Origin: Verrucomicrobiota bacterium
Lineage (GTDB): Bacteria > Verrucomicrobiota > Kiritimatiellia > SS1-B-03-39 > UBA6053
Direction: 5' to 3'
Length of the DNA: 32,280 nucleotides
Assembly (NCBI GenBank): GCA_020831625.1
Contig: JAFIGD010000054.1
Coordinates: 1 to 32,280, forward strand
This document shows, piece after piece, positions 2,761 through 21,231 of the stretch (position 1 is its first letter; each line of letters starts with the position of its first letter). Below the pieces are notes generated by a model. That model searched no databases, was not told the origin of the DNA, and was given only the letters and a program-made list of their open reading frames with translations. The position numbers and the translations under genes were made by a program.

Positions 2761-3801
2761 TCACCCTCCGATTTCGCTCATGCCGCGGTTGTGGCTGAAG
2801 CGGCGGAAGGCGAGTTCGTGGCCCCAGGGTTTTTCCCAGATGCCGGCGCGGACGATGTTCTCCAGCGCGGCGTTGTCGGCCCCCTTCCGGAGCGGGGTGA
2901 GCAGATCGACCTCGTCGTCCTTGAGCAGGCACAGGCGGAGTTTGCCGTCGGCGGTGAGGCGGGCGCGGTTGCAGTCGCCGCAGAAGGGGGCACTGACGGG
3001 ACTGATGAAGCCGACGGTGCCTTTGGCGCCGGGCACGCGGTAGACGCGGGCCTCGCCGTCCAGTCCGTTGCCCACGGGTTCGAGTTTGCCGAGGGCCGCC
3101 TCGATCCGGGCTTTCACGCTGTCCTCCTCCACCCGTTGTCCGTTCTGAAAATGCTCGTTGTTTCCGAAGGGCATCATTTCCAGAAAGCGCACCTGCCAGG
3201 GACGGTCCAGGCTGAAGCGGGCCAGGGGAACAAAATCCTCCTCGTTGAAATTCCGGACCGTCACGGCGTTGAGTTTGATCTCCAGGCCGGCCGCCTCGGC
3301 GGCATCCAGCCCCCGGAGCACCGCGTCCAGTCCGTCCCGGCGGGACATCTGACGGAAGCGGGCGGGGTCGAGGGTGTCGAGACTGATGTTGACCCGCCGA
3401 AGGCCGGCGGTTTTGAGGGGGCGGGCCAGTTTCGGCAGCAGCATGCCGTTGGTGGTCAGGGCCACAAAAGGTGCTCCGGGAAGGGCGGCGGTTTCCGCGA
3501 TCAGCTCCGTCAATTGCGGGTGCAGGGTGGGTTCGCCGCCGGTGAAGCGGAATTTATCGAAACCCAGCGCATGGAACAGCGGCAGCAGCCGCCGGTATTC
3601 CGCCAGGGAGATGTTTTCAGACTGCGGGCGGAATTTCATGTGTTCCGGCATGCAATAGACACAGCGCAGATTGCAGGCGTCGGTCAGCGACACCCGCAGG
3701 TAGTGGATTTCCCGTCCGTGTTTGTCCGACAGACGGCGGTTCTCGCTCTTCCGGGAAGAGAGCGGCTGGACGGGTTTCAACTGGAGCGTGGGGCCGGGCA
3801 T
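2761..3801 (-). CDS. moaA: GTP 3',8-cyclase, first step of molybdenum cofactor synthesis
   Basis: Radical SAM enzyme that, with MoaC, turns GTP into cyclic pyranopterin monophosphate in the cytoplasm. It is 346 aa, typical length. The N-terminal cluster motif is C43-x3-C47-x2-C50 (CNLRCVYC), GGEP at 88-91 helps bind SAM, and the C-terminal cluster motif is C274-x2-C277-x13-C291 (FCGDCNRARLT...RLC). The protein ends in Gly-Gly, as MoaA proteins do; that tail matters for activity in the family. The gene stands alone on the minus strand, apart from the Moco operon that starts 850 bp further right. The ATG at 3801 gives a normal N-terminus; no strong ribosome site precedes it. A decayed PIN gene starts just upstream. 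Confidence 0.96.
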   Translation of the reverse strand: MPGPTLQLKPVQPLSSRKSENRRLSDKHGREIHYLRVSLTDACNLRCVYCMPEHMKFRPQSENISLAEYRRLLPLFHALGFDKFRFTGGEPTLHPQLTELIAETAALPGAPFVALTTNGMLLPKLARPLKTAGLRRVNISLDTLDPARFRQMSRRDGLDAVLRGLDAAEAAGLEIKLNAVTVRNFNEEDFVPLARFSLDRPWQVRFLEMMPFGNNEHFQNGQRVEEDSVKARIEAALGKLEPVGNGLDGEARVYRVPGAKGTVGFISPVSAPFCGDCNRARLTADGKLRLCLLKDDEVDLLTPLRKGADNAALENIVRAGIWEKPWGHELAFRRFSHNRGMSEIGG

Positions 3802-4645: not shown

Positions 4646-5134
4646 ATGAATGTGTGTGTTGAACATCTGCTGACCAGCCCGGAGCACAAATACCGCGGGC
4701 ACTTCGGCGGGCCGTCGGGTTCGTGCGGCGCGGTGGCGCATGAGCGGATTGAAGTCCGGGCGGGGAGGGGGATTGTGGGGGACCGCTACTTTGACTACAA
4801 GGAGAACTTCAAGGGTCAGATCACCTTTTTCGATTTGGCGGTGCGGGACGCGCTGGCGGCGCATTGCGGGGTGGACATCTCCCCGGATGCGGTGCGCCGC
4901 AATGTGCTGCTCCGGGGTGTGGATCTGAATTCGCTGGTCGGTAAAACTTTTACCCTGCAAGGGGTCCGCTTTCAGGGATCGGAGGAATGCAAACCCTGTT
5001 TCTGGATGGACGAGGCGGTGGCCCCGGGCGCGGAGGAATTTCTCAAAGGCCGCGGCGGTCTGCGGGCCCGCATCCTCTCCGACGGCGCATTGACACTGGG
5101 GCCCGCCGAACTGCGGGAGGAGGAGCCGGCATGA
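4646..5134 (+). CDS. MOSC-domain protein
   Basis: 162-aa single-domain MOSC protein, the fold shared with the C-terminal domain of Moco sulfurases; such proteins are thought to carry or deliver sulfur for metal-sulfur cofactors. Visible hallmarks are GRGIVGDRYFD (41-50), RRNVLLRGVDLNSLVGK (84-100), the conserved cysteine region EECKPCFWMD (C115 and C118), and the closing GGLRARILSDG. It is the first gene of a seven-gene operon for molybdenum cofactor synthesis and overlaps moeA by ATGA at 5131-5134. That placement fits a role in Mo cofactor insertion, sulfuration or transfer to target enzymes, which is inference. The ATG has no clear ribosome site. Confidence 0.9.
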   Translation: MNVCVEHLLTSPEHKYRGHFGGPSGSCGAVAHERIEVRAGRGIVGDRYFDYKENFKGQITFFDLAVRDALAAHCGVDISPDAVRRNVLLRGVDLNSLVGKTFTLQGVRFQGSEECKPCFWMDEAVAPGAEEFLKGRGGLRARILSDGALTLGPAELREEEPA

Positions 5135-6300
5135 TTCCGGTGGCCGAGGCGTTTGCCCGATTGCGCGACGCGCTTCCCGATTTCGGCACGGAGCCGGTCG
5201 CGCTTTCCGATGCCGTCGGCCGCATCCTTCGGGAGCCGCTGCGCGCGGAGCGGGATGCGCCGCCCTTCGATCGCGTGATGCTCGACGGCGTGGCCGTGTC
5301 CCATGCCGCGCTGGCGGCGGGCCGCTCCCGCTTCCCCGTGGCCGGTCTGGCCCCCGCCGGACAGCCGAGGGCGCGGCTGCTCGATCCGCAATCGGTGCTG
5401 GAGGTCATGACCGGCGCGCCGCTGCCTGAGGGCGCGGACACGGTGGTGCCGGTGGAGGATCTGGAGCGCGAGGGGGACGCGGTGCGGATTCTCGACGTTC
5501 CCGAAAAAGGTCAGGGGGTCCACCGCCGGGCATCCGATGCCCGTGTCGGCGATGAGGTCCTGCCGTCGGGCACGCGGCTGCGGCCGGCCGCGCTTGCGGT
5601 GGCGGCCACGGAGGGGGCGCTCACCCTTCAGACAGCAAGGCGTCCGGTGATTTCCCTGTTGACCAGCGGTGACGAGGTGGTGCCGCCGGACGCGCAGCCG
5701 CTTGATCATCAGATCCGCGCCAGTCATCCCGCCGCCCTCGCCGCGCTGCTGCGCGGATTCGGTCACTGCATTTCCCGGCACCGCCATGCGCCCGATGATC
5801 CGGTCCTTCTGAAAGCGCTGCTCGCGGAGGCGCTGGAATCGGCGGAGATTCTGCTGGTGACCGGGGGGGTATCCAAGGGGAGCGCGGACCACGTGCCGCG
5901 CATTCTGGGGGAACTGGGGGTGCGCGGGCATTTTCACGGCGTGGCCCAGCGTCCGGGCAAACCGCTGTGGTGCGGGTCGCGCGGAAAGCAGGTGGTGCTC
6001 GCCCTGCCGGGCAATCCGCTTTCGGCCCTGACCTGCGCCCGGCGTTATTTGATTCCCGCGCTGGACGCGGCCATGGGCGCGCTGCCCGAGCCGCCGCCAC
6101 TGGTGCGTCCGCTCACCCCGCCCGCGCCCCATCCGACGCTCGCCACCTTTCGGCCGCTGCGCGTCACCTCCGAAGGATGGGAGTGGGTCATCCCGCCCAA
6201 CTCCGGGGCCCTGCACGTGCCCGCCCTGACGCAGGGCTTTCTGGAATGTCCCCCGGGATTTTCGCCCCCCGATCTGTTTCCCTTCTACGCCTGGACCTGA
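5131..6300 (+). CDS. moeA: Molybdopterin molybdenumtransferase
   Basis: MoeA inserts molybdate into adenylylated molybdopterin, with release of AMP. The 389-aa product has the full set of family segments: [13 protein letters not shown] (a variant of the usual SxMDGYA), [29 protein letters not shown], the MoaB/Mog-like [12 protein letters not shown], and RPGKPLWCG followed by [11 protein letters not shown] near the end. Start chosen at 5131 because it forms an ATGA overlap with the MOSC gene and gives the normal MoeA N-terminus ([14 protein letters not shown]); the frame is open further upstream but that part is not MoeA-like. moaC starts two bases after its stop. Confidence 0.95.
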
Positions 6301-6302
6301 TT

Positions 6303-6776
6303 ATGACCGACTTCACACACCTCGACTCCCAAAATATGCCCGCCATGGTGGACATCAGCGGCAAAGCCGTCACCGCCCGCAACGCCACCGCCCGCGTCCG
6401 GGTGGTCTTCCCGCCGGATGTGGCGGAGAAACTTGCAACCGATGGCTGGCAGGCGCCCAAGGGCCCCATTTTGCACACCGCGGTTATCGCCGGCACCCAG
6501 GCGGTGAAACGCACCTGGGATCTGATCCCCTTCTGTCATCCGCTGCCGATCGACGGCTGTAAATTTTCGCACAACTTGACGGACAATGTGCTTGAACTCC
6601 GCTGCACCGTGCGCACCACGCACCGCACCGGGGTGGAAATGGAGGCGCTCACGGGTGTGTCCATCGCCGCGCTGACCGTCATTGATATGTGCAAGGCACT
6701 TTCCCATGAAATTGAAATCCGCGACACGGTTCTGCTTGAAAAAACCGGCGGGAAGAGGGATGTGAGGGTATCATGA
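6303..6776 (+). CDS. moaC: Cyclic pyranopterin monophosphate synthase
   Basis: MoaC completes the first pathway step, converting the MoaA product 3',8-cyclo-GTP to cyclic pyranopterin monophosphate. The 157-aa protein, usual length, shows MVDISGK near the start, [19 protein letters not shown], then [11 protein letters not shown], and the catalytic region [16 protein letters not shown] followed by IDMCKAL (VIDM where YDM is common). The start at 6303 is two bases after the moeA stop; the same frame is open into moeA but upstream residues are not MoaC-like. It overlaps mobA through ATGA at 6773-6776. Confidence 0.96.
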
Positions 6777-7372
6777 ACATGCCCCAATCCCCAACCCTAA
6801 CAGGCCTGGTTCTCGCCGGCGGCAAGAGCCGCCGCATGGGCCGGGACAAAGCCCTGCTGGAGTTTCACGGCAAGCCCCAGGCGCTGGTGGCGGCGGAGAT
6901 GCTTCGCCCGCATGTCGATGAGGTGTATCTCTCCTGCCGTCCGGATCAGTATGCCGACGACGCCTTTTCCGGATTGCCGCGGCTTACCGACCCCGCCGAG
7001 GGCATGGGCCCCATGGGGGGCATGCTTGCCGCCTTCCTCCACAAGCCCGACGCCGCCTGGCTGGTCCTCGCCTGCGATCTGCCCCTGCTCACCCCCGAAA
7101 CCCTAGACACCCTCCTTCGCGGCCGGGAGCCCGGTCTGGCCATGACCGCCTTTGTCTCCGCGTTCGATGGACTTCCCGAACCGCTCTGCACGATTTACGA
7201 ACCCGCCGCGCTGCCTTTCCTCGAGGCCGCGCGGGACAGCGGTCACCTCTGCCCCCGCAAAATTCTGATCCGCAATCCCGAGCAGGTGAAATTGCTGAAG
7301 CTGCCCGAAGGAAATCCGCTCGACAACATCAACGCCCCCGAAGACCTCGAACGCAACGGACTTTCGATATGA
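6773..7372 (+). CDS. mobA: Molybdenum cofactor guanylyltransferase
   Basis: MobA joins GMP from GTP to Mo-molybdopterin to make the guanine dinucleotide form used by DMSO-reductase-family enzymes such as nitrate reductases and formate dehydrogenases. The 199-aa product has the nucleotidyltransferase signature [28 protein letters not shown], the metal-binding strand [13 protein letters not shown], and the closing NINAPEDL. Its presence implies that the cell makes bis-MGD enzymes, which could include a protein with a Tat signal like the one at the left edge (inference). It overlaps moaD by ATGA at 7369-7372. Confidence 0.95.
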
Positions 7373-7611
7373 TCCCTCTGCACGTGCACTATTTCGCCCT
7401 GTTCCGCGAGCAGGCGGGGCGGACCGATGAGGAGATCCAAAGCGCCGCCGCCACGCTGGCCGGCCTTTATGCGGAGCTTCGCGCCCGCCACGGGTTCACG
7501 CTTCCCCCCGACCGGGTGCGCTTCGCCGCGGGCGACGCCTACGCCGATGCCGACACCCCGCTGACCCCCGGCATGTCCATCACCCTGATCCCTCCCGTGG
7601 CCGGCGGATGA
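7369..7611 (+). CDS. moaD: Molybdopterin synthase small (sulfur carrier) subunit
   Basis: MoaD is a ubiquitin-fold carrier whose C-terminal glycine is activated by MoeB and thiocarboxylated, then supplies sulfur to cyclic pyranopterin. This 80-aa protein has the MoaD start (LHVHYFALFREQAG), the central GDAYADADTPLTPG turn, and the end ITLIPPVAGG with the essential Gly-Gly. It lies directly before the gene that fuses its two partners, MoaE and MoeB, overlapping it by ATGA at 7608-7611, so carrier, synthase and activating enzyme are made together. Confidence 0.95.
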   Translation: MIPLHVHYFALFREQAGRTDEEIQSAAATLAGLYAELRARHGFTLPPDRVRFAAGDAYADADTPLTPGMSITLIPPVAGG

Positions 7612-9110
7612 ACTCATTTTCCCTTTCCGACAACCCGCTGAACATCGGCGGGTTCCTGAAAGATTTCGCGAATGACCGGGCCGGGGCGCGGGTTTCGTTC
7701 GAAGGAGTGGTGCGCAATCATCATCTCGGTCAGGGGGTTGATTTTCTGGAGTACGAGGCCTTCCCGGAGATGGTCGAGGCGGAGGGCGGGCGCATTCTCA
7801 CCGAGGCGCGGGAGCGGTTCGCTCTGACCGACGCCGCCGCAGTCCACCGCGCGGGACGGCTCGAAATCGGGGATGTCGCCGTCTGGGTGGGCGCGCTGGC
7901 GGAACACCGCCAGGAGGCCTTTCTCGCCTGTCAATGGATCATGGATCAAATCAAGGCGCGGCTCCCGGTCTGGAAAAAAGAGCATTTCTCCAATGGAACC
8001 GTGGAATGGGTGGGAGCCGGACTTCAGGAGCCCGGATTGACGCCCCGGGCGGAAGCCTATTATCAGCGTCAATGCGTGTTGCCCCAGCTCGGGCCGGCGG
8101 GTCAGGAGAAACTCGGCCGGGCCCGGGTGCTGGTGGCGGGCGCGGGCGGTCTGGGCTGTCCGGCTCTGCTCTACCTCGCCGCCGCCGGGGCGGGACAATT
8201 GAGCGTGATCGACGGGGACACGGTGAACCTCTCCAACCTTCACCGCCAAATTTTGTTCACCCCCGCCGATCTGGGTAAAGGAAAGGCCTCGGTCGCGGCC
8301 GAGCGGCTCCGCGCCCAGAATCCCTGGATTGCGGTTCAGGCCCACGACGGCTTTCTGGACACCGACTGGCTTGCGCAACATCTGAACGGCCACGATTTGG
8401 TGTTGGACTGCACCGACCACTTTCCCACCCGTTATCTGCTGCACGACGCCTGCTGGCGGGCGGGCATCCCGCTGGTGCAGGCCGCCATCCATCAATTTGA
8501 GGGACAGGTGCAGAGTTTTCATCCGGACAGTCCGGGCGGATGCCTGCGCTGCCTCTGGCCGGAACCGCCGTCGGCCGACTGCGCGGGCACCTGCGCTGAA
8601 GCCGGAGTGCTGGGGCTCACCGCCGGTCAGGTCGGCCTGCAGCAGGCCATGGAGGCCCTGCGGTTGCTTCTCGACTGGCCCGGACATCTTCTGGAGCACA
8701 CCCTGCTCATCGACCTGATGAGCGGCGCGACCCGCCGCATCCGCCGTCAAGTCCGCCCCGGCTGCGTCTGCCGGACCGGCGCATTTCCCGCCCCCGCGCC
8801 GATGCCCGCTCCGGCGCCCGCCTGGCTGAGTCCCGGCGATTCCCTGCCGTCTGGAGCCCGGTACGTGGACATTCGCGAGGCGTACGAACGCGAAAACGCC
8901 CCGGCGGACATTCTCGCGCTCCCCCATTTCCCCCGCGAACGCTGGGAGGCGATCCCCGGCGAAATCCGACAGCGGCCCCTCATCCTCTGCTGCGCGGCCG
9001 GGGTCCGCACCCGCCATTGCCTTGAATTGCTCGGCCATCCCCCCGGCATCTGGGCCTGGACGGGGTCGATTCACGACCGACCGGCCGCGAAAGAAAGCCT
9101 CCCGCAATGA
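7608..9110 (+). CDS. MoaE-MoeB/ThiF-rhodanese three-domain fusion
   Basis: 500-aa fusion of three sulfur-relay parts of molybdopterin synthesis. Residues 1-140 are MoaE, the catalytic subunit of molybdopterin synthase, with its lysine region DQIKARLPVWKKEHF (K116, K123, K124) and GTVEWVGAG. Residues about 150-390 are a MoeB/ThiF E1-like enzyme: QLGPAGQEKL, the ATP loop GAGGLG (178-183), VNLSNLHRQILF, the TDHFPTR region with D270, and zinc-type cysteines C312/C315 (CLRC) and C386/C388 (CVC, closer than the usual CxxC). A Pro-Ala linker (394-405) leads to a rhodanese-like domain (about 410-490) with YVDIREAYE and an active-loop cysteine in CCAAGVRT (C462). MoeB-rhodanese pairs are known (MOCS3/Uba4 type); MoaE on the same chain is unusual. 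It overlaps moaD and the MEKHLA gene by ATGA. Confidence 0.93.
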   Translation: MNSFSLSDNPLNIGGFLKDFANDRAGARVSFEGVVRNHHLGQGVDFLEYEAFPEMVEAEGGRILTEARERFALTDAAAVHRAGRLEIGDVAVWVGALAEHRQEAFLACQWIMDQIKARLPVWKKEHFSNGTVEWVGAGLQEPGLTPRAEAYYQRQCVLPQLGPAGQEKLGRARVLVAGAGGLGCPALLYLAAAGAGQLSVIDGDTVNLSNLHRQILFTPADLGKGKASVAAERLRAQNPWIAVQAHDGFLDTDWLAQHLNGHDLVLDCTDHFPTRYLLHDACWRAGIPLVQAAIHQFEGQVQSFHPDSPGGCLRCLWPEPPSADCAGTCAEAGVLGLTAGQVGLQQAMEALRLLLDWPGHLLEHTLLIDLMSGATRRIRRQVRPGCVCRTGAFPAPAPMPAPAPAWLSPGDSLPSGARYVDIREAYERENAPADILALPHFPRERWEAIPGEIRQRPLILCCAAGVRTRHCLELLGHPPGIWAWTGSIHDRPAAKESLPQ

Positions 9111-9580
9111 GCGCGCCCTCTGATCCGTCGGCAAAGATGTTTTCCGGCGATCCTGTTCCGCTGATTGTGCGGAGCTACCGTCACTGGACGGGCGAAAACC
9201 TGCTGCCTTCCGATCTTGCGGAGAGCGGTTGGGCGGAGGCGCTGGCGGGGCTGTCGCGGGTGGTGGTGGCGCACGACACCGCTGCGGATCCCTGTTTTGT
9301 GTATGGAAACCGGGCCGCGCTGGAGTTGTTCGAAATGCGCCGGGAGGACTTTATCGGCATGCCCAGCCGACTGTCCGCCGAGCCGGTGCGGCGGGAGGAA
9401 CGGGCCCGGGTACTGGAGGAGGTGAGGGTCCGCGGGTTCTCCACCTCCTACAGCGGTGTGCGCGTTTCCGCCACCGGGAAACGGTTCCGGATCGAGAACG
9501 CCGTCCTGTGGAATCTGGTGGATCATGAAGGTGTCATCCGCGGTCAGGCCGCCACCTTCGCGCAATGGTCATTCCTGTAA
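9107..9580 (+). CDS. MEKHLA-domain (PAS-like) protein
   Basis: 157-aa single-domain protein of the MEKHLA family, a PAS-related fold with unknown ligand. Typical segments are IVRSYRHWTGENLLP near the start, VVAHDTAADPCFVYGNRAAL, LFEMRREDFIGMPSRLSAEP, the conserved GFSTSYSGVRVSATGKRFRI, and IRGQAATFAQW at the end. It is the last gene of the Moco operon, overlapping the MoaE-MoeB fusion by ATGA at 9107-9110, so it is almost surely co-translated with it. A sensing or cofactor-binding role tied to molybdenum metabolism is a reasonable guess, but nothing in the sequence shows the ligand. It has no output domain, DNA-binding motif or signal peptide. Confidence 0.88.
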   Translation: MSAPSDPSAKMFSGDPVPLIVRSYRHWTGENLLPSDLAESGWAEALAGLSRVVVAHDTAADPCFVYGNRAALELFEMRREDFIGMPSRLSAEPVRREERARVLEEVRVRGFSTSYSGVRVSATGKRFRIENAVLWNLVDHEGVIRGQAATFAQWSFL

Positions 9581-21143: not shown

Positions 21144-21231
21144 AGCCGGGCCGTTGGCCCTCTGAGGGTGGTGTGGGTCCCGGGACCCAGTCCTGACGGA
21201 CTGGGCTGGGATAAGCCGGGCCGTTGGCCCT
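21144..21231. repeat. Palindromic repeat cluster
   Basis: Four palindromes are packed in 88 bp. The 18-mer AGCCGGGCCGTTGGCCCT occurs twice in direct orientation (21144-21161 and 21214-21231), each with a GGGCC-GTT-GGCCC hairpin. Between them lie GGGTCCCGGGACCC (21175-21188) and CCCAGTCCTGACGGACTGGG (21186-21205), a perfect 8-bp stem. The cluster fills the gap between the glycosyltransferase-operon start (21082) and the DUF2851 stop (21240). It looks like a multi-copy genomic palindromic element. Confidence 0.85.

Follow-up and report, generated by a model that had tools for sequence, protein, structure and literature searches.

A MoaE-MoeB-rhodanese fusion in the molybdenum cofactor operon of a Verrucomicrobiota bacterium

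We found that a single uninterrupted open reading frame of 500 residues (positions 7608-9110, + strand) encodes, in this order, a MoaE domain, a MoeB/ThiF-type adenylating domain and a rhodanese domain; positions are those of the window, which is the whole stretch of 32,280 nucleotides analysed from contig JAFIGD010000054.1 (assembly GCA_020831625.1). The assignment is based on the open reading frame, Pfam, alignment and homologous fusions, and this MoaE-MoeB-rhodanese fusion appears to be undescribed. The three domains named in the original prediction were all recovered on the one chain, MoaE and ThiF by Pfam and the rhodanese by profile, fold and homologues. From the sequence and from analogy with MOCS3 and MoeBR, it is likely that the product is a working tri-functional enzyme of molybdopterin synthesis, in which MoaD would be activated and sulfurated as by these enzymes and would then serve the tethered MoaE. 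The domains, conserved residues, sole gene copies, operon and conserved MoaD neighbour were all observed, and from these we infer each step of catalysis and the advantage of tethering.

The MoaE domain comprises residues 1-137 (7608-8018, + strand), as delimited by Pfam, alignment to E. coli MoaE (1fm0) and residue counts. Residues 7-118 match PF02391 (MoaE) at 1.5e-32 and this N-terminal part also matches MoaE proteins among solved structures, including 1fm0. Conservation was assessed in an alignment of 24 sequences, 22 of them fusions. F31, R36, H100, R101, K116 and K123 were kept in 22/22 fusions, and we take K116, K123, R36, H100 and R101 to be the counterparts of the E. coli MoaE catalytic residues (the catalytic lysines and the conserved arginine and histidine).

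The adenylating domain comprises residues 150-388 (8055-8771, + strand; placed by Pfam, the MoeB 1jw9 match, the fold match and residue counts) and matches PF00899 (ThiF) at 3.4e-69 over residues 152-385. Among solved structures the middle part of the fusion matches E. coli MoeB (1jw9) at 1e-44, as well as ThiF and Uba4, and the predicted fold of the domain matches 1jw9 with a TMt of 0.90. R213, K226, D270 and C329 are invariant in 24/24 aligned sequences; C329 (codon 8592-8594, + strand) aligns with the cysteine of E. coli MoeB "TCVEAG" and, by position, is the presumed counterpart of MOCS3 C239. The active sites of all three domains had been judged to look intact, and this is borne out by their catalytic residues, which are conserved in 22/22 fusions for MoaE and in 24/24 sequences for the other two domains. 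The best scores against the NCBIfam MoeB models lie under the cut-offs (275.9 bits vs 449 for NF006444 and 230.5 vs 266 for NF004281), and we therefore call the domain MoeB-like and not a named equivalog. Its first cysteine pair is present as CLRC (C312/C315) and its second is CVC (C386-x-C388), one residue short of CXXC; two CXXC motifs mark MoeB vs MoeZ (PMC3227635). Fusions from Armatimonadota and one other bacterial contig (L023-L026 and L030) lack both zinc cysteine pairs of MoeB and retain the catalytic cysteine. The CxC form of the second zinc pair in the window and the absence of both pairs in Armatimonadota weigh against a working tri-functional enzyme.

A linker rich in proline and alanine (8772-8846, + strand; from sequence and predicted structure) leads to the short rhodanese-like domain (residues about 414-490; 8847-9077, + strand), which was placed by homologue Pfam matches, profile and fold. 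Pfam PF00581 gave no above-cut-off match on the window fusion, nor at this place in the scan of its own genome. The same model matches 10/24 homologues in the alignment at E 0.01 or better, rhodaneses in the PDB are matched by a profile built from the C-termini of 18 sequences (best 3e-16), and the window C-terminal segment, used by itself, matches the rhodanese of YgaP at 0.002. When the predicted C-terminal fold (pLDDT 90) was compared with known structures, almost all of the top ranks were rhodaneses (prob about 1, TM 0.5-0.6, E only about 5e-3), and the CxxGxR motif (C462, G465, R467) is invariant in 24/24 sequences. Because of these matches, the fold and the invariant motif, we identify the C-terminus, by sequence and structure prediction, as a short, divergent rhodanese domain with C462 (codon 8991-8993, + strand, in CAAGVR) as its active-site cysteine by alignment. 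It should be noted that its shortness, its divergence and the lack of a Pfam match in the window also weigh against a working enzyme. The domain is 60% and 53% identical to small stand-alone rhodaneses of a genus-mate and a family member, respectively, and 51% identical to that of the nearest fusion, and the rhodanese part may have a separate history, by domain replacement or fission. Two stand-alone small rhodaneses (L062:4265-4576, + strand, and L063:3088-3366, - strand), from genomes without MoaE, are nearer to the window rhodanese than are those of most other fusions; by eye, one follows metal-type ABC transporter genes and one lies beside ArsR-/ArsC-like genes.

In MOCS3 the adenylated carrier is attacked by the persulfide of the rhodanese cysteine (C412), after which another cysteine (C239) frees the thiocarboxylate (PMC5372717), and mycobacterial MoeBR is a precedent for the mechanism (PMC3227635). 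The conserved residues fit the MOCS3 scheme, and each part of the fusion would work in its known way. The MoeB domain would adenylate the C-terminal glycine of separately made MoaD, C462 would obtain sulfur from a cysteine desulfurase or other donor, and the sulfur bound to C462 would attack MoaD-AMP to form an acyl disulfide, which C329 would resolve to the MoaD-thiocarboxylate. MoaD-COSH would then depart from MoeB, bind the tethered MoaE domain and sulfurate cPMP to molybdopterin, for which two sulfurs are required. The fusion would hold the synthase and its re-sulfurating enzyme at equal amounts and close together. The further suggestion that the carrier shuttles without leaving the enzyme is unsupported, as in E. 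coli MoaD-COSH dissociates from (MoaD-MoeB)2 before it binds MoaE2 again (PMC5372717). By analogy, the tether could only raise local concentration, and local re-binding would be a reasonable reading of "shuttle".

In the predicted full model the domains are confident and the linkers, including the short one between MoaE and MoeB (8019-8054, + strand), are disordered, with pLDDT below 50 at residues 137-145 and 400-405, and the relative placement of the domains is without confident prediction (pTM 0.57), a further point against the tri-functional reading. Because of the disordered linkers and this pTM, no fixed channel between the sites is supported. Two disordered linkers would also suit a protein that is encoded fused and works as separate parts, by linker proteolysis or internal initiation, with no mechanistic role for the fusion itself. 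An in-frame TTG at codon 144 (8037-8039, + strand), between MoaE and MoeB and with AGGAG upstream, is a possible internal start, and cleavage of MoaD-MoaE fusions has been reported or assumed (PMC3227635). However, such a start preceded by AGGAG occurred in 0 of the ten other fusions checked, and the frame has stayed fused across long divergence. Cleavage is also not required, since the C-terminus of the carrier is not buried here as it is in MoaD-MoaE fusions. We consider such separate working parts unlikely, and prefer a tri-functional enzyme that acts as one chain.

The operon runs from a MOSC-domain protein gene (4646-5134) through moeA (5134-6300), moaC (6297-6776), mobA (6773-7372), moaD (7369-7611) and the fusion to a gene for a MEKHLA-domain (MEKHLA/PAS-type) protein (9107-9580), all on the + strand, and neighbouring genes overlap by 1 to 4 bases. 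As had been proposed, MoaD, a sulfur carrier ending in PPVAGG, is encoded by the overlapping gene just before; its stop shares 4 bases (ATGA) with the ATG start of the fusion. The MEKHLA gene shares 4 bases with the fusion stop and for this reason is probably translated along with the cofactor operon. Upstream of the operon are a nitrite/sulfite reductase gene and moaA (2761-3801, - strand), of which the genome has no further copy. An Acido-Lenti-1 RNA (RF01687) was also found in the window at 21186-21231 (+ strand; 44.6 bits vs a cut-off of 37).

When the host genome (96% complete) was searched with the fusion, neither a second MoaE nor a second MoeB was found, and the only other ThiF match was partial and 32% identical. 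The genome also encodes a molybdoenzyme (L041), annotated by eye as nitrate-reductase-like. It had been claimed that the whole sulfur relay except MoaD is on this chain, which holds for rhodanese, MoeB and MoaE but not for the cysteine desulfurase that supplies the persulfide. Candidates for it elsewhere in the genome are class-V aminotransferases, the family that includes cysteine desulfurases. Neither MOCS3 nor MoeZR is limited to a single carrier (PMC5372717, PMC3227635), and the MoeB-rhodanese half could likewise mainly serve another ubiquitin-like carrier, in thiamine, cysteine or tRNA thiolation pathways, with MoaE as a passenger. However, this is very improbable given that the sole ThiS-family gene in the genome is the adjacent moaD, inside a molybdenum cofactor operon, and that homologous fusions adjoin moaA, moaC, moeA or mobA genes.

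In the nearest relative, at 65-66% identity, the frame is likewise fused without interruption, and the same domain order is uninterrupted in relatives about 40-66% identical. The fusion was found in 16 of 388 genomes of the phylum sample (as read from the match table) and in one more from the sample of relatives (G010), giving at least 17, a minimum because fusions with split matches could have been overlooked. Those from the window's phylum span five families (f1, f23, f25, f28 and f49), and in G155 and G293 the gene lies on 4-Mb single contigs. In G346 and G159 the MoaE-MoeB fusion is present twice per genome. Outside the phylum it occurs in four Armatimonadota contigs and in the other bacterial contig mentioned above. 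The addition of MoaE, predicted to be uncommon, is indeed uncommon overall but recurs in Verrucomicrobiota and Armatimonadota. In every fusion locus examined moaD is directly or closely upstream, with a Gly-Gly end wherever the end was read. MoaE is present in 18/58 sampled relatives, one copy each, and is fused in 7 of these, including 5/5 in family f1; MoaA is present in 7/7 fused genomes, and genomes without MoaE are mostly without MoaA as well. Among plasmid records none covers 80% of the fusion query.

In Bacteriovoracaceae (L027-L029) moaD, moaE and moeB-rhodanese are separate consecutive genes in the same order as the fusion domains, with parts 44-46% identical to the fusion, and MoaE and MoeB-rhodanese are in different frames. 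That the same three parts exist as two adjacent genes would be in keeping with an assembly or sequencing artefact which joins separate genes. However, we give this explanation next to no probability: fused uninterrupted frames in many genomes, among them the nearest relative at 65-66% and the two in which a single 4-Mb contig carries the gene, rule out the frameshift that had been raised as a possible refutation. The trees require two state changes for the MoeB domain and three for the MoaE domain, and a single origin of the fusion is neither shown nor rejected by these sequences (AU p 0.30 for MoeB and 0.086 for MoaE, with long branches).

MoeB-rhodanese fusions were already known, as the original prediction had noted, in MoeBR, MOCS3 and Uba4, which share with the window fusion the order of adenylating and rhodanese domains, a catalytic cysteine in both and, for Uba4 and MoeB, sequence matches. 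The window fusion differs in its additional N-terminal MoaE and its CxC second cysteine pair, and its rhodanese is of a short type that resembles single-domain rhodaneses more closely than it does the Uba4 domain. In MoaX and other MoaD-MoaE fusions a subunit of molybdopterin synthase is likewise joined to a pathway partner, but there the carrier MoaD is fused, whereas here it is a separate protein whose Gly-Gly end is open. Archaea and some bacteria have MoaD-MoeB and MoaD-MoeBR fusions (PMC11237513), which join the same pathway but fuse the carrier to the E1, without MoaE. Fusions described in PMC1779556, PMC11237513, PMC2948915 and PMC3227635 include MoeB-rhodanese, MoaD-MoaE, MoaD-MoeB, MoaD-MoeBR and MoaC-MoaE. 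The architecture could have proved widespread and well characterised, but we found no description of it in the open-access literature searched, including passages of the first three of these papers. In Paenibacillus cellulosilyticus (L096:2659-4508, unannotated) a single frame encodes MoaD fused to MoaE, with the Gly-Gly now internal, and a MoeB-like gene overlaps its end.

Both MoaE and MoeB form homodimers, and the chain could therefore close into a dimer or link into chains. We put forward tentatively, and with some doubt, that the fusion closes into a single dimer, a self-contained molybdopterin machine which would re-sulfurate MoaD beside the synthase site, or that it forms higher-order chains. 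Which of these assembly states the protein adopts is the point of greatest interest, as either would, if true, be a new physical organisation of the pathway with a proximity-driven hand-over of the carrier. The parts are neighbours in Bacteriovoracaceae and fused in Verrucomicrobiota and Armatimonadota, making this a case of gene order passing to fusion. The protein also offers a naturally occurring construct that locks sulfur activation and insertion one-to-one, and in which the transfer of MoaD from MoeB to MoaE would be testable on one polypeptide.
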